Source: Arcobacter defluvii (GTDB lineage Bacteria > Campylobacterota > Campylobacteria > Campylobacterales > Arcobacteraceae). From it: a stretch of DNA of 64,000 nt. The DNA lies in NCBI RefSeq assembly GCF_013201725.1, contig NZ_CP053835.1:496001-560000 (forward strand), given 5' to 3'. Every line of letters begins with the position of its first letter. The stretch's first letter is position 1. A program made the translations under genes and the position numbers. Shown one piece after another: positions 29,381 through 40,667 of the stretch. The notes under the pieces were generated by a model. It had not been told where the DNA came from and searched no databases. It saw only the letters and a list, made by a program, of their open reading frames with translations.

Positions 29381-29411
29381 AGAAAAAGAGTGAAAATATT
29401 ACTCTTTTTCT
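29381..29411. terminator. Bidirectional terminator between the rhodanese and acyltransferase genes
   Basis: A perfect 11-bp stem AGAAAAAGAGT/ACTCTTTTTCT spans a 9-nt loop, with A and T runs on either arm, between two convergent genes. It overlaps the last codons of the minus-strand gene. Confidence 0.78.
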
Positions 29412-31111
29412 ATATATCTTTGTTTTGCACTCTCTTTTATTTTCTCAACTTCAACTAAAATAAATCCATCAACACAATCTGCAAAATTTGTATCAATATT
29501 AAAATCTAAAAATTTAACGCCATTATCTTCTGCTATTTCACTATATTGTTTATATAAAGTTGGAATAGATACGCCAATATTTGATAAGGCTGATTTTAAA
29601 AATTTAAAATCTTTTCTTTTATCATTTAAATCAAAAAGCTCTTTTATATCATTTATATTATTTGAATATTGATATGGAGTTTTAGCTTCAACTAATTTTT
29701 CATTTGTTCCATAATAATGATTATAATAAAAAATTAACATATCTTTAGCAACAGCTGGGAAAGTTGCACTAAGAGAAACTGGACCAAACATATATTTTAT
29801 ATTTGGATTATTTTTTAAATAAGCACCAATTCCAAACCAAAGATAATCTAAAGCTCTCGTTCCCCAATATTTAGGTTGAACAAAACTTCTTCCTAATTCA
29901 ATAGAATCATGTAAATAAGGAATAAATTCTTCTGTGTATCTAAAAAGAACATTAGAATAAAAACCTTTTACGCCAATATTTTTAAAAATAAAATTTGAAT
30001 TTCCAATTCTATAAGAACCCACAATTTCTAGCTCATTTTCATCCCATAAAATAATATGTTGATAATAAATATCATATTTATCGGTATCTCTTTTTTTATT
30101 TACACCTTCACCAACTTTTCTAAAAGATAATTCTCTTAATCTTCCTAATTCTTTTAAAACTATTGAATCTTCTGTGTAATCATATAAATAAATCTTTTTT
30201 CCATCGTTTGTTTGTCCAATAAGTTTTGATTTTTTTAATTCATTTAACAAATCAATTCTACTAACAGGATGTGCAATAGCACTTTGGGTTTCAAAAAAAG
30301 ATTTTTTTCCTTTTTTTAGACTATACAGATGTTTTCTATATAAATTTAGTAAAAACTTTTTATCTATTCCTTTTGGAGTGATATTTTCATTTGGAATAAT
30401 TTGTCCAACTTTTATATTTATTCTTTTTGATTTCTTTTTGAACATTTCATGAGATAATAAAAGTGTTGAAAATGTTTTGTTAATTATAGATATTGTGTAA
30501 AATGTTTTCGAATTTTTAGCATCTAAATAAATTGGTAAAATAGGTGAATTTGTATTTTGTGCAAATTTTAAAAAACCTCTATTCCAAATAGGGTCTTTTA
30601 TCCCCTTTGTTGTAGCTCGGCTAACTTCTCCTGCTGGAAAAATAATAACTGCTTCTTCATTGTTTAAAGCTTCGTAAATTTTTTTTATATCAGTTTTTGA
30701 TTGTCTTATTTTATAGTTGTCTATTGGAATAAGTAAAGAATTTAAAGCTTCAAAACCAGCTAAAAAATCATTTGCTACTATTTTTACATCTTTTCTAATT
30801 TGTGAAATAAGTCTTAATAAACATAAAGCATCAAGTCCACCAAGAGGATGGTTTGCAATAATTACAACTTTTCCACTTGTTGGGATATTTTGCAAATCAT
30901 TACTTGAAGTTGTATAGTCAAAATCAAAATAGTCTAAAACAGCATCAACAAATTCAAATCCTTTTAAATGCGAATTTTGTGATAAAAATTGATTTATTGA
31001 ATCTTCATGAACTATTTTTTTTGCAATTTTAAATAAAGATTTTTTTAGAAAATTCTCTTTTTCTTTTATTTTTGGGAATTTTTTTTCTATCTCTTTTTGA
31101 ATGTCTATCAT
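29399..31111 (-). CDS. Fused O-acyltransferase / GNAT N-acyltransferase (OlsF-like)
   Basis: 570-residue two-domain protein. The N-terminal half is a lysophospholipid-acyltransferase-like domain with NHPLGGLD (87-94) and IIFPAGEVSRA, the variant motifs of the hemolysin-like O-acyltransferases. The C-terminal half (about 300-500) resembles OlsB-type acyl-ACP N-acyltransferases: GSYRIG, ELGRSFVQPKYWG and FGPVSLS. This order matches the bifunctional ornithine-lipid synthase OlsF, where the C-terminal part N-acylates the amino acid and the N-terminal part adds the second chain. The acceptor could be ornithine, glycine or another amino acid. The ribosome site TAGGAG precedes the ATG. Single gene, inner-membrane face. 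Confidence 0.78.
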   Translation of the reverse strand: MIDIQKEIEKKFPKIKEKENFLKKSLFKIAKKIVHEDSINQFLSQNSHLKGFEFVDAVLDYFDFDYTTSSNDLQNIPTSGKVVIIANHPLGGLDALCLLRLISQIRKDVKIVANDFLAGFEALNSLLIPIDNYKIRQSKTDIKKIYEALNNEEAVIIFPAGEVSRATTKGIKDPIWNRGFLKFAQNTNSPILPIYLDAKNSKTFYTISIINKTFSTLLLSHEMFKKKSKRINIKVGQIIPNENITPKGIDKKFLLNLYRKHLYSLKKGKKSFFETQSAIAHPVSRIDLLNELKKSKLIGQTNDGKKIYLYDYTEDSIVLKELGRLRELSFRKVGEGVNKKRDTDKYDIYYQHIILWDENELEIVGSYRIGNSNFIFKNIGVKGFYSNVLFRYTEEFIPYLHDSIELGRSFVQPKYWGTRALDYLWFGIGAYLKNNPNIKYMFGPVSLSATFPAVAKDMLIFYYNHYYGTNEKLVEAKTPYQYSNNINDIKELFDLNDKRKDFKFLKSALSNIGVSIPTLYKQYSEIAEDNGVKFLDFNIDTNFADCVDGFILVEVEKIKESAKQRYIEKE

Positions 31112-31187
31112 TTATACTCCTAATTTATAAAATTATAAAAAGGTTTGATTACAAAAAGGTGACAGAAAAAAATAAAAAATGTAAAAA

Positions 31188-31221
31188 TAGTTATTGAATT
31201 GTAATAGATATTTTTTATAAT
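31188..31221 (+). promoter_or_regulatory. Pho-box-like promoter 1 (diheme lipoprotein)
   Basis: TAGTTAT-TGAA-TTGTAAT is a 7-4-7 direct repeat with an 11-base period. Ten bases later comes TATAAT (31216-31221). The layout is that of a PhoB-type box replacing the -35 element. The first half-site is the weakest of the three copies in this block. Confidence 0.55.
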
Positions 31222-31267
31222 AATGCAAATTCTAAACTTTTTTAAATATTTTAAAGTAGGAGAAAAA

Positions 31268-33574
31268 ATGTTTAAGAAAGTCTTATTAAGTACAATTGCT
31301 GCGTATTTTTTAGTTGGATGTGGAGGAGGAAGTTCTTCAAATTCTTCCGATACATCAACAACAATTATTGTTGAAAGGGGAGCTGTTTTAAATGCAACAG
31401 TAAAAGATGCTTTAAATCAAATAGCTATTTGGAATAAGGGAACAAATAGTTATGTTTTTAAAAATAGTATAACTTATCCAATTAGTGTAATTGGTGGTTT
31501 TGTTGATATTAATAACGATGGAATAAAAAATGATTCAGATTTTGATTTAGATATTGAATTAAAATCTAGTAGTGGAAAAAATGTTACATTAATTTCAACT
31601 ATTATTTATAATCAAGATAAAATAAGAGAAAAAAATAATCTAAATATTTTAAGTAAAGAGTTTTCTTTAAGTGAAGAAGAGTTATTAAACTTGCCATCTT
31701 CAAAAAAAGAGTTAGCACTTTTATCAAATGTTATTTATAAAAATTTAGAGTTAAACTCTGCTATAACTTTAGAAAATATTGTTGAATTAATCTCTTTAAA
31801 TAAAATAGATTTAAAACAAGAATATGAAAAAATAGATTTACAAAACTATACAAATTTAAGTTCAAAAGAGTTTTTAGAAAAAAATGAATTAGAAACAATA
31901 GATGAAATAAAAGATATTAAAATTCTAAGAGAAAAACTACCAAGTTATATAGGAACAGATTTGACTTCAACTGAAGTTTTAAATGAAAAATCAGCTTATA
32001 TTTCACCTCAATGTTATACCAAAACACAAGATGAAAATCTAAATGTTTATAATCCTTGTTATTCTTGTCATATAAATTCTGATGAACCAAATTATATAGA
32101 TGATTGGGATTTACAAGAGAGTTATGCTTTTAGTGAAAATAGTTATAAAAATCCTTTTACAAATAGTTTTAAAGATAGAACAACTTTAGTAAATGCAATA
32201 AATGATAATCAAATTCTTGAATATATAAATCAAGATAACTATAAAGATGAAAATGGAAATATTATTTTAAATACAAAACTAAAATATGATTTACCAAAAG
32301 AGTGGGATTTTGCATATGATGGTGTAAAAGATAGTGTTTGGAGTGGATATGTACCTGATTGTTATTTTAACTTTGATGATGAAGGTTTTGATAAAGATAA
32401 AAAAGGTGAGTTTACAGGTTGGAGAGTTTTTGCATATAGTCCATTTTTAGGAACTTTTTGGCCAACAAATGGAAGTACAGATGATGTATTAATTAGACTT
32501 CCAAAATCTATGATGTTAGATGAAAATGGTGATTTTTCAAAAGAGATTTATAAAATCAATTTAGCAATTGTTGAATCTATGATTAAAAGAAAAGATATAG
32601 ATTTGGGTTTTGAAGTTGATGAGAGTAAATATGGAGTTGATTTAAATCATAATAATATTTTAGATAAAACTTCAACAATAGTTTATAAATGGATTACTCC
32701 TGATGCAATTAGTAATTATCCAAAGATAATATATTATAACTATTATGTTGGTCTTGCAAAAAGTAAACTTGAAACAAATGAACTTAATATTGCTCCAGGA
32801 CTTTATCCAAATGGAACAGAGTTTTTACACTCAGTTAGATATATTGGAATTAAAGATGATAAAAGTGGAATAAAATTAGCCAATAGGATGAAAGAGTTAA
32901 GATACGCAAAAAAAACAACTTGGAATACCTATGCTCAACTTAGTAATGCAGCATTAAGTGAGATAAAGGAAAAAGATACTTTTCCTGATAGATTAAGAAC
33001 TATTAAGGGAAATATTGAAACAGGATTGACAACTGGTTTAGGTTGGAATTATCAAGGATTTATAGAAGATATAAATGGAAATTTAAGACCACAAAGTTAT
33101 GAAGAAACTCTTTCTTGTATAGGTTGTCATTCAGGAATTGGTGCAATTACAGATTCAACTTTTGCTTTCCCTAGAAAATTTGATAGTGCAGATAGTTGGT
33201 ATCATTGGAGTAAGAAAGATTTAACTGGAACAAAAGATAGAACTCTTTCAAACTCAAAAGGTGAATTTGCTTTTTATTTAGAACAAAATAAAGCTGGAGA
33301 TGAGTTTAGAGCAAATGATGAAATAAAAAATTTATTTTTTGATGCAAATGGAAATTTAATTCAAAGTGAAGTGGATAAAGTTGCAAATGACATCACATAT
33401 TTAATCTATCCTAGTGTACAAAGAGCAATACAACTTAATAAAGCATATAAAATAATAGTAAATGAACAAAGTTATATTTATGGTAAAGATGCACATATTA
33501 AACCTTTAAATGCAACAGTTTATGATGAGGTAGAAATAGATAAAAAAACAGGAATAAGTGCTATTAAATTTTAA
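31268..33574 (+). CDS. Diheme c-type cytochrome lipoprotein, unknown family
   Basis: 768-residue lipoprotein. The signal peptide ends in LVGC followed by GGGSSS. An N-terminal extension (about 20-230) has a calcium-loop-like DINNDGIKNDSDFD. The rest is a module shared with the next gene: CYSCH (264-268), conserved WRVFAYSPFLGTFWPTNGS, CIGCH (617-621), GWYHW-like SWYHW, and RANDEI near the end. Two CxxCH motifs imply two covalent hemes. I start at the ATG at 31268, which has an AGGAG site; an ATG at 31223 lies right after the -10 and cannot be used. Probably a surface or periplasm-facing redox protein. I do not recognise the family. Confidence 0.8.
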   Translation: MFKKVLLSTIAAYFLVGCGGGSSSNSSDTSTTIIVERGAVLNATVKDALNQIAIWNKGTNSYVFKNSITYPISVIGGFVDINNDGIKNDSDFDLDIELKSSSGKNVTLISTIIYNQDKIREKNNLNILSKEFSLSEEELLNLPSSKKELALLSNVIYKNLELNSAITLENIVELISLNKIDLKQEYEKIDLQNYTNLSSKEFLEKNELETIDEIKDIKILREKLPSYIGTDLTSTEVLNEKSAYISPQCYTKTQDENLNVYNPCYSCHINSDEPNYIDDWDLQESYAFSENSYKNPFTNSFKDRTTLVNAINDNQILEYINQDNYKDENGNIILNTKLKYDLPKEWDFAYDGVKDSVWSGYVPDCYFNFDDEGFDKDKKGEFTGWRVFAYSPFLGTFWPTNGSTDDVLIRLPKSMMLDENGDFSKEIYKINLAIVESMIKRKDIDLGFEVDESKYGVDLNHNNILDKTSTIVYKWITPDAISNYPKIIYYNYYVGLAKSKLETNELNIAPGLYPNGTEFLHSVRYIGIKDDKSGIKLANRMKELRYAKKTTWNTYAQLSNAALSEIKEKDTFPDRLRTIKGNIETGLTTGLGWNYQGFIEDINGNLRPQSYEETLSCIGCHSGIGAITDSTFAFPRKFDSADSWYHWSKKDLTGTKDRTLSNSKGEFAFYLEQNKAGDEFRANDEIKNLFFDANGNLIQSEVDKVANDITYLIYPSVQRAIQLNKAYKIIVNEQSYIYGKDAHIKPLNATVYDEVEIDKKTGISAIKF

Positions 33575-33610
33575 GATTAAAAGAGAATTATATTTTATCA
33601 ATATGGATAA

Positions 33611-33644
33611 CTGTTATCAATTTGTAATAAAGCCAAAGTAAAAT
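33611..33644 (+). promoter_or_regulatory. Pho-box-like promoter 2 (second diheme cytochrome)
   Basis: CTGTTAT-CAAT-TTGTAAT (33611-33628) is followed, again after exactly ten bases, by TAAAAT (33639-33644). The left part also forms a near-palindrome, TGGATAA-CTG-TTATCAA (33604-33620), close to the 7-1-7 Fur-box pattern. Confidence 0.55.
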
Positions 33645-33670
33645 TGTGAAAATAAAAAAGGTTACTATTT

Positions 33671-35425
33671 ATGATAAAAAGAAGTTTTTTACTAGGAAAT
33701 ATGATTTTATTTTCTTCAATATTTGCAAATGAATTGGATTTAAAATCTACAAATGCACTAAATACAACGGCATATATTCCTAGTCAATGTTATACAAAAA
33801 CAGTGGATGAAAAAAATGAAAATATTCTTTATAATCCCTGTTTTTCCTGTCATACTTTAAATAAAGAACCAAATTTCACTCTAAGCGATGCTGATTTACA
33901 AGAAGGTTATGATTTTCCAAAAGATGCTTTAAAAAATCCTTGGACAAATCTTTTTAAAGATAGAACAAATGAAGTAGCTAAGATTAGTGATGAAGAGATT
34001 TTAAAATATATTAAAGTTGATAATTATAAAAATCAAAATGGTGAAATTATATTAAAATCAAAACTTGAAGATTTAAATGAAACTTGGGATGCTAATAACA
34101 ATAAAAAATGGGATGGTTATATTCCTGATATTTATTTTAATTTTAATGAAGAGGGTTTTGATTTAGATAACAGTGGAAAATTCACAGGTTGGAGAGTTTT
34201 TGCTTATCAGCCATTTTTAGGAACATTTTGGCCAACAAATGGAAGTACTGATGATGTGATGATTAGACTTTCAAAGCCATTTCAAAGTAATGAAAAAGGT
34301 GATTTTGATTTAGAAACTTATAAATTAAATCTTTCAATTATTGAAGCTTTAATCAAACAAAAAACTATAAATATAGATGAAATAGATGAAAAAAAATTTG
34401 GAGTAGATTTAAATCAAAATGGAATTTTAGATAAAACAACACAAATAGTTTTCAAATGGCTTAAACCTAAATACGATTTTGATTCAAAGAAATTTAAAAA
34501 TTTTTCTATGAGTTATGTAGGTTTGGCAAAAGAATTACTTGAAAAAAATGAACTTTTAATTGCACCTGGTTTATATCCAATTGGAACAGAATTTACTCAT
34601 ACCGTTAGATATCTTGATATTGACAAAAATGATGAAATTAAAATGTCAAGTAGATTAAAAGAATTTAGATATGCAAAAAAAACATCTTGGAATACATATT
34701 CTCAACTTAGTAATCTAGGCTTAGCTGATATAAAAGAAAAACATGATTTTCCCGATAGATTAGATGTTTATAAAGGAAATTTAGAAACAGGATTAAATAA
34801 TAAAAGAGGATGGTTTTATCAAGGTTTTATAGAAGATTCTAATGGAGATTTAAGGCCTCAAAGTTATGAAGAAACACTTTCTTGTATGGGCTGTCATAGT
34901 AATATTGGCTCAACTGCTGATTCAACTTTTGTATATCAAAGAAAATTTGAAAAAGATAGTTTTAATTCTGGTTGGTATCATTGGAGTAAAAAGGGATTTA
35001 AAAATATTCCAGATAAAAAACTAGAAAATGGTCAAACTGAGTATGTAAGATATTTAAAAGAAAATAGTGCAGGAGATGAATTTAGAGCAAATGATGAAAT
35101 TATGGATAAATTCTTCAAAAAAGATTGGCAAAAAGATACAAAAAATATAGAAAAAGATTTGATTTTTAAACTTGAAAATCCACAACTTGAACTAACTCAA
35201 GAATGGAAATTTAAACTAGAAGAATTAGAAAAAATCAAAAATGATATTTCATATTTGATTCTTCCTTCAAAACAAAGAGCTTTAGAATTAAATAAAGCAT
35301 ATAAAATAATAGTAAATGAACAAAGTTATATTTATGGAAAAGATATTCATATAAAACCTACACAAAATGTTCATAAAGAGATAAAAAAAGGAACAATGAC
35401 TAATCTTCAAAAGGTTTTAAAATGA
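33671..35425 (+). CDS. Diheme c-type cytochrome, paralogue of preceding gene
   Basis: 584 residues with a cleavable signal peptide (ending SSIFA) rather than a lipobox, so probably soluble in the periplasm. It aligns along its length with the C-terminal two thirds of the upstream lipoprotein: PSQCYTKT, CFSCH (57-61), GWRVFAYQPFLGTFWPTNGSTDDV, RPQSYEETLSCMGCH (second heme at 405-409), GWYHWSKK, RANDEI and the nearly identical tail KAYKIIVNEQSYIYGKD. The pair is a tandem duplication. Its stop overlaps the NicO gene by 4 bases, tying it to metal transport genes. The substrate and partners are unknown. Confidence 0.8.
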   Translation: MIKRSFLLGNMILFSSIFANELDLKSTNALNTTAYIPSQCYTKTVDEKNENILYNPCFSCHTLNKEPNFTLSDADLQEGYDFPKDALKNPWTNLFKDRTNEVAKISDEEILKYIKVDNYKNQNGEIILKSKLEDLNETWDANNNKKWDGYIPDIYFNFNEEGFDLDNSGKFTGWRVFAYQPFLGTFWPTNGSTDDVMIRLSKPFQSNEKGDFDLETYKLNLSIIEALIKQKTINIDEIDEKKFGVDLNQNGILDKTTQIVFKWLKPKYDFDSKKFKNFSMSYVGLAKELLEKNELLIAPGLYPIGTEFTHTVRYLDIDKNDEIKMSSRLKEFRYAKKTSWNTYSQLSNLGLADIKEKHDFPDRLDVYKGNLETGLNNKRGWFYQGFIEDSNGDLRPQSYEETLSCMGCHSNIGSTADSTFVYQRKFEKDSFNSGWYHWSKKGFKNIPDKKLENGQTEYVRYLKENSAGDEFRANDEIMDKFFKKDWQKDTKNIEKDLIFKLENPQLELTQEWKFKLEELEKIKNDISYLILPSKQRALELNKAYKIIVNEQSYIYGKDIHIKPTQNVHKEIKKGTMTNLQKVLK

Positions 35426-36153
35426 TAGAACTATATAATACTTTTTTAAACTTTGTTATAGGAACTCAACAAAAAATAAATCTTCAAATAAGCGATTATT
35501 TTGATAGATTAGAAACAGGTGATGAAAGTATGTTTATTTATATTTTAGCTGTTTCTTTTCTTTATGGATTAATTCATGCTTTAGGACCAGGTCATGGGAA
35601 AATGGTAATCGCAAGTTATTTTTTAACAAAAAATACAAAAATAAAAGAGGCTTTTAAAGCAGGATTTTTAACTTCTATTATTCATACAATTTCTGCTTTA
35701 TTAATAACTTTTACTTTATATATCTTTTTTGAAAATACAATCACAAAATATTTTTCAGATATAAATACAAATATGTATAAAGTTTCAGCTATTTTTATAA
35801 TTTTAATCGCCTTATTTTTATTCTATGAAACTTATAAAGATAGAAATGAAGAAGAAAAAATACAAAAAATTGGAAATAAAAGTTTATTGGCTGTGACTTT
35901 GTCAATAGGAATAGTTCCTTGTCCTGGAGTTATGTCAATAGTTTTGTTTTCTATAATTTTAGGATATATAAATCTTGGAATTTTAAGTGCAATTTTTATG
36001 AGTATTGGAATGGGATTGACAATCTCACTTGCTGCAATTATCTCTTCTCAACTAAAATCTTCAGAAAATAAAAACTTGCAAGCAATAATAAATAAGATTA
36101 GCTATTTAGGAATTTTATTGTTATTTAGTATGGGAATTATTTTATTGGTATGA
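35422..36153 (+). CDS. NicO-family nickel/cobalt transporter
   Basis: 243-residue inner-membrane protein with about six helices. The family motif GLIHALGPGHGKMVIASYF lies in helix 1 (about 48-66), with a second conserved patch VPCPGVMSIVLF. NicO proteins move nickel or cobalt, but some act on other metals. An ATGA overlap with the upstream diheme cytochrome and another with the downstream DUF1007 gene place it inside a single operon. The metal and direction of transport cannot be told from the sequence. Confidence 0.85.
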   Translation: MIELYNTFLNFVIGTQQKINLQISDYFDRLETGDESMFIYILAVSFLYGLIHALGPGHGKMVIASYFLTKNTKIKEAFKAGFLTSIIHTISALLITFTLYIFFENTITKYFSDINTNMYKVSAIFIILIALFLFYETYKDRNEEEKIQKIGNKSLLAVTLSIGIVPCPGVMSIVLFSIILGYINLGILSAIFMSIGMGLTISLAAIISSQLKSSENKNLQAIINKISYLGILLLFSMGIILLV

Positions 36154-36632
36154 AAAAGAAAGTAGCTCTATTTTTTTGTGGTTTAAATTTATATGCCCAT
36201 CCTCACTATTTTTTAGATTCAAGTTTACAAATAGATGAAAATATAGTTAAAAATTTTTGGAAATTTGATGCTTTAAATTCGAAGATTTTAATGTTTGATT
36301 TTGATAAAAATAAAAATAAAATTTTGGATAAAGATGAAAAAGAAGAATTTCTAAAAGCAAATTTTTATAAGTTAAAAGCAAATAATTACAATATTTTTTT
36401 ACAAAACGAAGAAAAAGAGTTTGAAATTATTCCTCAAAATGTAGAGGTACTTTATGAAAATAGAAAATTAACTATATATTTTGATTTCCCTTATGAATTA
36501 AAAGGTGAAACTACTTTTTGTACTATGGATGAAAAAATTTATTTAGCTTATAAATTAGAAGATTTAAAAACCAATTTAAAAACAGATATTCAAAAAAGTG
36601 AATATGATTATTGTATAGGAGTTACAAAATGA
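36150..36632 (+). CDS. DUF1007 periplasmic protein
   Basis: 160 residues. A signal-like start leads to AHPHYFLD, the His-rich beginning typical of DUF1007, and KNFWKFDALNSKIL follows as in the family. A loop DFDKNKNKILDKDE looks like an EF-hand. DUF1007 proteins commonly pair with NicO transporters and are thought to be periplasmic metal partners. It is coupled to both neighbours through ATGA overlaps. Confidence 0.8.
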   Translation: MKKKVALFFCGLNLYAHPHYFLDSSLQIDENIVKNFWKFDALNSKILMFDFDKNKNKILDKDEKEEFLKANFYKLKANNYNIFLQNEEKEFEIIPQNVEVLYENRKLTIYFDFPYELKGETTFCTMDEKIYLAYKLEDLKTNLKTDIQKSEYDYCIGVTK

Positions 36633-36940
36633 AAAAAGGATTAATATTGATTGGACTAATGAGTTATAATTTAGTTGCTCATCCTGTAAATTATACAATT
36701 GAATTAGAAGTTTCTTATAATGAAAATACAAAAGAAGCAAAGGTAATTTGCCAAAGTAATAGTAAAAATAAATGTGGTTTATATAATGTAAATTTATTAA
36801 ATGAGAAAGATGAAACTTTAGTAGATGTAAAATTTCCCTTTTTAAAAGATTTTATTTTAATAAAAACTGATATAAAACCCACAAAATTGGACTTTTATTT
36901 AAGACAAACTCCTGAACATAAGTATAGTAAAGTCTTTTAA
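36629..36940 (+). CDS. Small secreted protein of unknown function
   Basis: 103 residues from the ATG at 36629, which overlaps the DUF1007 stop (ATGA). A signal peptide ends near NLVA, and the mature protein starts HPVNYTIELEVSY. Two cysteines (ICQSNSKNKC) may form a disulfide. The rest looks beta-rich. I recognise no family. As last gene of the diheme/NicO operon it may be an accessory metal or redox partner. Confidence 0.65.
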   Translation: MKKGLILIGLMSYNLVAHPVNYTIELEVSYNENTKEAKVICQSNSKNKCGLYNVNLLNEKDETLVDVKFPFLKDFILIKTDIKPTKLDFYLRQTPEHKYSKVF

Positions 36941-37115: not shown

Positions 37116-40100
37116 ATGAAGAAAAAATACTTAAGTTTGAGTGCATGTTCTTTATTGGCTGCATTTACATTTATTGGTTGTGGAAGTTCATCTTCTTCTG
37201 ATAATAATACTCCTACCACTACAACAAGTACAGGGACTTTACAATTAAATCCATATTTAGCAAATATTGATTATACATGTGGTTCTATTGTTGGGACAAC
37301 TACATCAGAAGGTAAATTTACTTACGAAGATAATGGAACTTGTACATTTGTTATTGGGGGAAAATCTTTAACTGCAACACCTAGTTCAAATCTTACAATT
37401 GCTCAATTAGCAAATCAAAATGAAGGCGTATCAAGTGAAGTGCTTTCAGCTTATATTATTGCTAAAATGTCACAAAAAACTGGAATTACTTATGATATAA
37501 ATAATTTACCAGAAACTTTTGAATTACCAGATGATATAGAAGGAAGTACAACAAATCCTTTAGTATTTGATACATTTGATAATTTAAAAGCAAAATTAGG
37601 TACAGATTCAATAGTTTCAAAAATTGATAATATTAAATTTGATGTAGCAAATAGATTTGCAAAAAAAGTATCTTTATCATTTCAAGAGTTAGCAACTCCT
37701 ATTACAAATGAAGAACAATTAACTCAACAAGTTTCAAGTAAAGCTTATGTAAATGGTGAAGCTCAAAATATTTCATATACAGAAATTATGAAAACTACAA
37801 TGACTGGAAATAGTGAAATCTTAGGTCAATCAAAAGATTATTTAGATAATCCAATCACATTTGGTGATGGAAGTCCTTATATTTGTAATGGAACAAATGC
37901 AGGTGAAGGTTCAGGTATGGACTTTACATCTTTACACAATGTTGATGGAAAACTTTTTGCTATTTCTCAATTTGAATGTGCATTGGGTTCTATGTATATG
38001 GTTGAATTAAATCAAGATACATCAACAGGTAAATTAACACCTAAAACAGATACTTTAAAATATATTTCACAAAAAGCAGGATTTGGAGGATTTGTACACT
38101 GCGCTGGTCAAAAAACTCCTTGGAATTCTCATTTAAGTTCAGAAGAGTATGAGCCAGATGCAAAATCTCCAGATGGAAACTCTTATTATACAGAATTAGC
38201 AAAATATTGGGGTGAAAAATCATATAGTGCATATTATTATGGATGGACACCTGAAGTTAAAATTGAAAATAATGAACCAGTATATTCAAAACATTATGCT
38301 ATGGGAAGATTTTCTCATGAGTTAGCTTATGTAATGCCAGATAATAAAACTGTATATCTTTCTGATGATGGAACAAATGTAGGACTATTTATGTTTGTTG
38401 CAGATGTTGAAAAAGATTTAAGTTCAGGAACTTTATACGCAGCAAAATGGAATCAAACATCAGAAGCTGGTGTTGGAACAGGAAGTGCTGATTTAACTTG
38501 GATTAACTTAGGACATGCAACAAATGATGAAATTAAAAATATCTTAGACCCAGATGGAGATTTGACAACAAATGATGCTCCAACTTTTGCTGATATTTTT
38601 GATTCAGTATCTGCAACAAATGGAACTTGTGATTCAGGATTTACTTCAATCAACACAAGTGCTGGACAAGAGTGTTTAAAAATTAAATCAGGAATGGAAA
38701 AAGCTGCTTCTAGATTAGAAGTAAGAAGATATGCTGCATTAAAAGGTGCAACAACTGAGTTTAATAAAGAAGAAGGTATTACTTTTGATAAAAATGCAGG
38801 AAAACTATATGTTTCTATAAGTGATGCTAGAAAAGGTATGGAAGATAATAGTTCATACGATGTAGGTGGAAGTAACGATATTAAAATTGCTGCAAACAAA
38901 TGTGGTGCAGTTTATTCTTTAGATGTTTCAACTTCAGAAGTTAAAGATACTTCAAATACAGCAATTGCATCAACTTATGTTGTTAAAAATATGCAAGGTA
39001 TAGTTGCAGGTATCCCAACATCATATGACAGCTCATCTGCTTATGCAGGAAATTCTTGTGATGTAAATGCAATAGCAAGTCCAGATAATTTATCTTTCTT
39101 AGAAAATTCAAATACTTTAGTTATTGGAGAAGATACTTCTTATCACAAAAACAACGTAGTTTGGACTTATAATACAAAAACAACTGAATTAACAAAAACA
39201 TTTACTACACCACTTGGTGCAGAAACAACATCAGCATTCTGGTTCCCAAATCTTGCAAATGGATTTAGTTATTTAGGAGTTGTAACTCAACATCCAGATT
39301 TAAATACAACTGATGGTGGAGAATCTGCTTATGGATATGTTGGACCATTTAAAAACTTAACTGATTTAAAAGATAGTACACCACAAGTATTTAAAAATGG
39401 AGCGTCATTACCTTATACAGTATTAAGAAATGATTTAACAGATGGTTTAGGAAATAGTTTTGAAATAAGAAATGGTGGTTATGGTTCAGCTATGTCAGCA
39501 GATCCTGCTGATGCAAATAGTTTCTATGCAATAACAGATAGAGGACCAAATGCAGATTTTACAGGAGCAGAAGGAAAAGGTAAAAAATTCCCATTACCTG
39601 ATTATACTCCAAGAATTGGACATTTTAAAGTAACTTCAACTGGGGAAGTAGTTAAAACAAAAGAGATTTTACTAAAAGATAGAGATGGAAATAACATCAC
39701 AGGTTTACCAAATACAAGTGCTTTAGGTGGAACTGGTGAAATTCCTTATGATATAAATGGAAATGTAATTGTTGATTCAAAAGGAAATATGAGATTAGAT
39801 GATTATGGTTTAGATAGTGAAGGATTAGCTGTATTGAAAGATGGAACTTTCTGGATTAGTGATGAATATGGACCACATATTGTTCATTATGATGCAACAG
39901 GAAAAGAGATAGAAAGAATCAATCCATTTGCAAGTGATTCAAGAAACAAATATACTTTACCAGCAGAATTTGCAAATAGAAGAGCAAATAGAGGAATGGA
40001 AGGTTTAGCAATAACACCTGATCAAAAAACTTTAGTTGGAATTATGCAATCAACAATGTATAATCCATCAAGTTCAGTTAAAAATCTTGATATTACAAGA

Positions 40101-40667
40101 ATTGTAGCTATTAACTTAGAAGATGGAACAGTAAAACAATATTTATACAAACAAGAGAAAAAACAAAATGCAAACTCTGAATTAGTAGCAATTGATAATG
40201 ATACTTTCTTAGTATTAGAAAGAGATGAAAATTTCTTACAAGATTCAGGTGTTGAAAATACTCAAAAAAATGTATATAAAATCAAATTAAGTTCAGGTAC
40301 TGAACTTGAAAATGTTACATTAGGTACAAATATGGTTCAAGATGCAACTTTAGGATTAACAATTGATGGAAGTACATTAGAAGAGTATGTATTAGCAAAT
40401 GGTTGGTCTGGATTAGAATCAAAAGGAATCAAACCAGTTGAAAAAACTTTAGTGTTAGATATGGTTGCAAAAACAAACTATCCTCATGATAAAATGGAAG
40501 GTTTATGGCTTATTAATAACTCAACACTTGGTGTTTTAAATGATGATGATTTTGCTGTAACAGCAACAGATGGTATTTTAGAACAAAAATATCTTGATAC
40601 AAATAAATTAGTAATTGATAGTAATGTTTTATATATTATTAATGGTTTGGATTTAAGTGCAAATTAA
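37116..40667 (+). CDS. PhoX-type phosphatase fused to phytase-like esterase, lipoprotein
   Basis: 1183-residue lipoprotein; the signal ends FIGC (Cys22) and a Ser-rich linker follows. The middle part (about 230-740) is PhoX-like (DUF839): MGRFSHELAYVMPDNKTVYLSDDG, LFMFVADVEK and the later GITFDKNAGKLYVSISD. PhoX enzymes are calcium- and iron-dependent phosphomonoesterases. The last third (about 760-1180) matches the phytase-like esterase family: GGYGSAMSADPADANSFYAITDRGP, DSEGLAVLKDGTFWISDEYG and NRGMEGLAITPDQ. It probably releases phosphate from organic esters outside the inner membrane. The Pho-box-like promoter suggests induction by phosphate starvation. Confidence 0.85.
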   Translation: MKKKYLSLSACSLLAAFTFIGCGSSSSSDNNTPTTTTSTGTLQLNPYLANIDYTCGSIVGTTTSEGKFTYEDNGTCTFVIGGKSLTATPSSNLTIAQLANQNEGVSSEVLSAYIIAKMSQKTGITYDINNLPETFELPDDIEGSTTNPLVFDTFDNLKAKLGTDSIVSKIDNIKFDVANRFAKKVSLSFQELATPITNEEQLTQQVSSKAYVNGEAQNISYTEIMKTTMTGNSEILGQSKDYLDNPITFGDGSPYICNGTNAGEGSGMDFTSLHNVDGKLFAISQFECALGSMYMVELNQDTSTGKLTPKTDTLKYISQKAGFGGFVHCAGQKTPWNSHLSSEEYEPDAKSPDGNSYYTELAKYWGEKSYSAYYYGWTPEVKIENNEPVYSKHYAMGRFSHELAYVMPDNKTVYLSDDGTNVGLFMFVADVEKDLSSGTLYAAKWNQTSEAGVGTGSADLTWINLGHATNDEIKNILDPDGDLTTNDAPTFADIFDSVSATNGTCDSGFTSINTSAGQECLKIKSGMEKAASRLEVRRYAALKGATTEFNKEEGITFDKNAGKLYVSISDARKGMEDNSSYDVGGSNDIKIAANKCGAVYSLDVSTSEVKDTSNTAIASTYVVKNMQGIVAGIPTSYDSSSAYAGNSCDVNAIASPDNLSFLENSNTLVIGEDTSYHKNNVVWTYNTKTTELTKTFTTPLGAETTSAFWFPNLANGFSYLGVVTQHPDLNTTDGGESAYGYVGPFKNLTDLKDSTPQVFKNGASLPYTVLRNDLTDGLGNSFEIRNGGYGSAMSADPADANSFYAITDRGPNADFTGAEGKGKKFPLPDYTPRIGHFKVTSTGEVVKTKEILLKDRDGNNITGLPNTSALGGTGEIPYDINGNVIVDSKGNMRLDDYGLDSEGLAVLKDGTFWISDEYGPHIVHYDATGKEIERINPFASDSRNKYTLPAEFANRRANRGMEGLAITPDQKTLVGIMQSTMYNPSSSVKNLDITRIVAINLEDGTVKQYLYKQEKKQNANSELVAIDNDTFLVLERDENFLQDSGVENTQKNVYKIKLSSGTELENVTLGTNMVQDATLGLTIDGSTLEEYVLANGWSGLESKGIKPVEKTLVLDMVAKTNYPHDKMEGLWLINNSTLGVLNDDDFAVTATDGILEQKYLDTNKLVIDSNVLYIINGLDLSAN

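Follow-up and report, generated by a model that had tools for sequence, protein, structure and literature searches.

We analysed a 64,000-nucleotide stretch of the Arcobacter defluvii genome (contig NZ_CP053835.1, positions 496,001 to 560,000; the window throughout), in which two genes for dihaem cytochromes, dih1 and dih2, lie near a gene for a divergent relative of PhoX, a widespread iron-dependent phosphatase. The principal features, each carrying or preceded by a Pho-box-like promoter, are the following (window coordinates):

31190 to 31221, forward strand: Pho-box-like repeat and -10 box before dih1 (exact match)
31268 to 33574, forward strand: dih1, dihaem lipoprotein of 768 residues with CxxCH at 264 and 617 (open reading frame, lipobox, motifs)
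33613 to 33644, forward strand: Pho-box-like repeat and -10 box before dih2 (one mismatch to the first search pattern, none to the refined one)
33671 to 35425, forward strand: dih2, dihaem protein of 584 residues with CxxCH at 57 and 405 and a P460-like C-terminal haem segment
37050 to 37081, forward strand: Pho-box-like repeat and -10 box before the PhoX-like gene (exact match)
37116 to 40667, forward strand: PhoX-like gene of the divergent form, its product carrying a fused phytase-like domain and a lipoprotein signal but no twin-arginine motif (PF05787, 1.4e-23; PF13449, 5.7e-51)

A preliminary description of this DNA had noted two secreted dihaem paralogues with CxxCH motifs about 350 residues apart, and our measurements agree. 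The motifs are separated by 353 residues in dih1 (CYSCH at 264, CIGCH at 617) and by 348 in dih2 (CFSCH at 57, CMGCH at 405), against an expectation from composition of 0.0005 CxxCH per protein. The two proteins share 57% identity, with no further dihaem copy in the whole 3.02-Mb genome. We set the dih1 start at 31268 because it is preceded by AGGAG, whereas the alternative longer start at 31223 would fall 1 nucleotide past the -10 box. The dih2 product is probably soluble in the periplasm. An additional N-terminal domain of about 215 residues is present in dih1 and absent from dih2; residues 32-214 match, at 40.5%, a 5'-nucleotidase protein of 1770 residues whose gene lies upstream of the cluster at another locus (L077; labels beginning with L denote loci and those with G genomes).

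Among 397 Campylobacterota genomes, 53 encode relatives of the dihaem proteins, spread over 21 of 68 genera; further relatives, at about 36% identity, are found on three Pseudoalteromonas megaplasmids. From 66 matches we removed seven, namely L042 (a fusion of 984 residues), the 1770-residue L077 nucleotidase protein, which has only the dih1 N-terminal domain in common, L051, L052 (three fragments) and L067; both CxxCH motifs are kept in all 59 full-length relatives that remained. Alignment A1 comprises 42 of these, thinned by hand, and alignment A2 comprises 29 members of the PhoX-like set. A pattern scan of the genome contigs, made with poor patterns, returned one locus (L033), a scan of viral contigs found no dihaem relative, and a PHROGs search gave no match. 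Since the proteins stay below the cut-off of every Pfam and NCBIfam model and match no solved structure in the PDB, they appear to form a new and unnamed family, as the preliminary description had supposed of their architecture; one relative, WP_308363490.1, is annotated as hypothetical. None of the 42 A1 members matches PF03150 (CCP_MauG) at E up to 0.01.

By profile comparison, the C-terminal haem segment of the family is distantly P460-like. The window proteins score 22.6 and 19.5 bits against PF16694 (cytochrome P460), below its gathering threshold of 27, while 34 of the 42 A1 members match it at E up to 0.01 (best 1.4e-6). An hhalign comparison of the segment with PF16694 gave a probability of 93.4% (E 2.5e-7, 41 columns), and hmmsearch returned E values down to 4.6e-8. 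H310, found in 59/59 sequences, is the sole histidine outside the motifs conserved at 75% or more, no methionine reaches that level, and C40, Y41, K330 and K337 are invariant. As H310 stands alone in this respect, at most one haem could have a conserved histidine as its distal ligand, and the other would be open or bound by Cys, Lys or Tyr. H310 may occupy the location of the cross-linking lysine of McP460 (Lys78, according to PMC11928373), in a register that is not significant, as the two align only once an insertion is trimmed and with a score not above that of shuffled sequences (5/60 reach it).

The pairing of the dihaem protein with the divergent form of PhoX is well supported. All 397 Campylobacterota genomes were searched for PhoX and divided by us, on the basis of scores, into 57 with divergent PhoX and 34 with only the canonical, strongly scoring type that carries a twin-arginine translocation (Tat) signal. 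The dihaem protein is present in 51 of the 57 and in none of the 34. It also occurs in two of the 306 genomes without a PhoX match: in G310, where blastp reveals a PhoX-like gene (L079), and in G257, which holds gene fragments only. The co-occurrence gives a Fisher p of 6e-55, uncorrected for phylogeny. Among the loci examined, the PhoX-like gene lies within 300 nucleotides of the dihaem gene in 49 of 56 pairs and within 2 kb in 54, with both genes on the same strand in 52; dihaem and PhoX-like distances co-vary (r 0.855; 0/1000 permutations). In one genome (G377) both genes are present, far from each other. On the Pseudoalteromonas megaplasmids the pair also lies together, a gene annotated 'alkaline phosphatase PhoX' adjoining that of the dihaem relative, itself annotated as a hypothetical protein. 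Neighbour clustering indicates that only this pair recurs widely while the flanks differ. The link to phoX made in the preliminary description holds, with a PhoX-like partner at nearly all loci. In the open-licence literature we found no paper joining PhoX to a dihaem or P460 cytochrome, and the word 'diheme' is absent from PMC11928373.

Membership of the partner in the PhoX family is clear from its scores, as the window protein reaches 84.3 bits against PF05787 (gathering threshold 24), which 28 of the 29 A2 members match at E up to 0.001, and the divergent and canonical PhoX profiles align with a probability of 99.7% over 478 columns. The aligned metal-site positions are kept in the divergent form (Cys179, Glu193/194, Glu251, Glu273, Asp292, Glu387 and Asp479), and C329, E343, E344, E380, E402, D418, E553 and D657 are invariant in all 60 divergent sequences, together with two additional cysteines, C596 and C648. 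We take PhoX to hold a ferric-calcium cofactor and the aligned positions to be its iron and calcium ligands. The export signals have changed: a pair of arginines within the first 60 residues is found in 0/60 divergent sequences as against 14/15 canonical ones, and a simple lipobox pattern fits 35/60 of the divergent set. Judged from these signal sequences, divergent PhoX is exported by Sec and has lost the twin-arginine signal. C. jejuni PhoX is Tat-dependent and induced at low phosphate (PMC4148689). With Sec export, no metal cluster built in the cytoplasm would be expected, which would leave a plausible job for the cytochrome.

Pho-type regulation of these genes, as predicted from their upstream regions, is also well supported. 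The preliminary description had proposed a Pho-like promoter, and we find it in triplicate, with one copy ahead of each dihaem gene and a third ahead of the PhoX-like gene, from which the first search pattern (GTTAT-N4-TTGTAAT-N10-TATAAT) was drawn. At up to three mismatches the window holds 6 matches against 1.26 expected, a number reached by 0/100 shuffles. In the whole genome, three of the four sites with at most one mismatch are those before dih1, dih2 and phoX; at up to three mismatches there are 77 sites against 64 in a reversed control, at most a slight excess, so only close matches carry weight. A refined pattern (GTWAY-N4-TTGTAAY-N10-TANNAT), loosened after inspection of relatives and thus more biased than the first pattern or the weight matrix, gave 19 genomic sites with at most one mismatch, where the reversed control had 3. 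Among them are sites before dih1, dih2, the PhoX-like gene, phoD (Pfam 3e-95), pstC (TIGR02138, 282 bits, cut-off 196), olsF (below) and a metallophosphoesterase gene that scores below its model cut-off; others fall at a pyruvate-kinase-like gene (named by eye), in or close to unrelated open reading frames, and in a repeat present five times. The five copies of this repeat (G000; L142, L146, L147, L148 and L151) are identical and probably part of a repeated element.

Among relatives, where the count took all 66 dihaem upstream regions, fragments included, a site precedes 33/58 PhoX-like genes, 9/12 olsF genes, 9/19 leading and 2/47 following dihaem genes, compared with 0/8 nicO genes, 13/863 other genes and a mean of 0.2/58 for shuffled PhoX upstream regions. 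At one locus (L078:11148-19171) the same site stands before each of two tandem PhoX-like paralogues. A weight matrix built from five sites of the genome itself placed 52 of 124 dihaem and PhoX-like upstream regions in the top 5% of the background, three training sites included. A GTTTC repeat of the C. jejuni type gave one site with one mismatch (40691, reverse strand) and none before the module genes. The layout of the window sites fits two 11-nucleotide direct repeats, the form of the Pho box given in PMC4415409.

The wider gene context also bears on phosphorus. Divergent to dih1 lie the following features:

31132 to 31163, reverse strand: Pho-box-like repeat and -10 box before olsF (one mismatch to the refined pattern)
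29399 to 31111, reverse strand: olsF, bifunctional ornithine lipid synthase (NF052615 equivalog, 829.5 bits, cut-off 620)

Ornithine lipid is a membrane lipid of phosphate starvation, and genes of the olsF cluster are found in 11 other loci examined. PhoX-like domains are fused to a phytase-like domain in the window, to choice-of-anchor I in one A2 member and to a 5'-nucleotidase in L078, and phytase-like genes adjoin the PhoX-like gene in L091 and L044. An operon-like run of PhoX-like, dihaem, TonB receptor and beta-propeller phytase genes (L054:5718-12219, the one locus of the two with Pfam assignments), matched by a run in L055, suggests phytate use. A CCP_MauG dihaem peroxidase gene lies directly 3' of the dihaem gene in L049:10593-12092 and L053:1957-3555, and in L042:8836-11787 the dihaem protein is fused to a cytochrome-d1-like propeller (PF02239, 1.3e-68). 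Hydrazine synthase, which we take to be another system of propeller and haem, was considered and set aside, having no PDB match in support.

We tentatively favour, at somewhat less than even confidence, a model in which the locus is a phosphate-starvation module and a Sec-exported PhoX-like enzyme has the dihaem protein as its dedicated redox partner, or as the maturase of its cofactor. Under phosphate scarcity, a PhoB/PhosR-like regulator would bind the Pho-box-like repeats and switch on the PhoX-like gene together with dih1 and dih2. Sec would export the PhoX-like protein unfolded, and its iron-calcium cofactor would therefore be assembled outside the cytoplasm, where the enzyme would hydrolyse phosphoesters. 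The dihaem cytochrome would take electrons from, or give them to, the iron site, most likely so that the iron stays in, or reaches, its active ferric state, with electrons passing to the respiratory chain. In some of the species, a NicO transporter, a DUF1007 protein and a small secreted protein may adjust the metal supply of the periplasm. A bolder reading, which we hold to be less likely than not, is that this phosphatase-family enzyme relies on respiratory electron transfer through its dedicated dihaem cytochrome, or is coupled to it. This would be a redox-linked route to phosphate, possibly including the oxidation of reduced phosphorus, for which no counterpart is known to us.

Several observations weigh against the favoured model. 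Arg385, which we take to be a catalytic residue near the active site that contacts phosphate, is replaced by Lys in 60/60 divergent sequences, and Trp388 by Gly, so the divergent form need not be an active phosphatase. In six genomes with divergent PhoX the dihaem protein is missing; two of these loci have a split PhoX reading frame (L115) or a dihaem remnant (L116), yet L075 and L076 look intact, as does L112, with a longer N-terminus, the sixth genome being G165. Linkage and co-variation would also arise from co-transfer without physical coupling. No site within two mismatches precedes 25/58 PhoX-like genes, and the pstS-like gene has no good Pho-box-like site. The AlphaFold2 models of dih2 (three sequences) and of the P460-like domain were unusable, with confidence scores (pLDDT) of 29.8 and 36.8.

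Among the alternatives, the best surviving, though improbable, is that the cytochrome has a job of its own, in detoxifying NO, hydroxylamine or peroxide or in plain electron transfer, and shares no more than its regulation with PhoX. The P460-like haem segment and the member fused to a cytochrome-d1-like propeller point that way, as P460 and c'-beta proteins act on NH2OH and NO (PMC11928373), but such a job would hardly explain why the protein is absent from all 34 canonical-PhoX genomes and otherwise occurs almost exclusively with divergent PhoX. Somewhat less probable is that the dihaem protein oxidatively modifies residues of its partner to build the active site, in the manner of MauG or MbnH: the gene is paired with that of one target protein, Tyr, Trp and Cys residues are invariant in both partners and CCP_MauG genes stand directly 3' in L049 and L053, whereas the dihaem family itself has no CCP_MauG match. 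We regard as more unlikely again that the pair oxidises phosphite, hypophosphite or phosphonate to phosphate, the PhoX-like site binding the substrate and the dihaem protein taking the electrons. The Pho-like promoter, a partner cytochrome that looks obligate and in which one haem or both have no conserved His or Met as distal ligand, and the invariant Lys in place of Arg385, presumed to contact phosphate, would suit such chemistry; however, the enzymes fused to the pair or encoded beside it hydrolyse phosphoesters (phytase, 5'-nucleotidase), the aligned metal-site positions are conserved, and the recurring neighbours, most of them read by eye only, included no recognisable gene for phosphite or phosphonate use.

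The remaining alternative concerns the genes between dih2 and the PhoX-like gene:

35422 to 36153, forward strand: NicO-family membrane transporter (PF03824, 2.6e-19)
36150 to 36632, forward strand: DUF1007 secreted protein, predicted mature N-terminus HPH (PF06226, 1.3e-16)
36629 to 36940, forward strand: small secreted protein of 103 residues without a family, predicted mature N-terminus HPV

That NicO and DUF1007 form the core of a periplasmic system for metal transport and redox chemistry, as the preliminary description had it, is very unlikely: the ATGA overlaps that join dih2, NicO, DUF1007 and the small gene are exact (35422-35425, 36150-36153 and 36629-36632) and, with the Pfam matches, bear out the gene order it gave, and L080 keeps dih2, NicO, DUF1007 and the small gene without a PhoX-like neighbour (its genome, G304, holds a second dihaem-PhoX pair, L045), but the module lies 3' of the dihaem gene in only the window and eight other loci (9 in total), against a PhoX-like partner in nearly all, and no separate Pho-box-like site precedes nicO (0/8), which probably shares that of dih2. 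In L033 (Arcobacteraceae AH-541-O20), PhoX-like, dihaem and NicO genes are consecutive. The 'periplasmic redox/metal system' should be recast as a phosphate-starvation module with a dedicated cytochrome, in which the metal module is accessory. The predicted mature N-termini of DUF1007 and the small protein (36150-36940) start with His-Pro in most loci, as read by eye, and could possibly form an N-terminal histidine metal site.

Together, these observations suggest that some bacteria tie phosphorus scavenging to electron transfer outside the cytoplasm. The pair varies kinds that are already known, PhoX and the P460-like haem segment, and there is a real chance that it represents a new kind of redox-linked phosphorus acquisition. 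If true, a Sec-exported PhoX branch accompanied by a cytochrome of its own would connect respiration with the limitation of phosphorus and iron in microaerophilic and sulfidic bacteria, and assembly of the iron-calcium cofactor outside the cytoplasm would become directly testable. Proteins now annotated as hypothetical would gain a family worth naming and a predicted regulon.

The module can be compared with several known systems. NicO/RcnA transporters with DUF1007 give the same Pfam matches, the genes here being accessory in a subset of loci. MauG and MbnH-MbnP, which we presume to be pairs of a dihaem enzyme and its target, likewise dedicate a dihaem protein to one neighbouring partner, although the present family lacks a Pfam CCP_MauG match. 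With cytochrome P460/c'-beta (PF16694) the dihaem proteins share the haem segment GW...F...CxxCH...D..F.R, but they have about 580 residues and two haems rather than about 150 and one, and an invariant His where the cross-linking Lys may lie, in a register that is not significant. The closest counterpart is PhoX itself (P. fluorescens 3zwu/4amf; C. jejuni Cj0145), assigned to the same family by Pfam and by a PDB profile search (1.2e-22), with the positions of Cys179, Glu273, Asp292 and Glu387 conserved. The divergent form differs in carrying a Sec or lipoprotein signal in place of the Tat signal, in having Lys for Arg385, Gly for Trp388 and two extra invariant cysteines, and in its dihaem partner.

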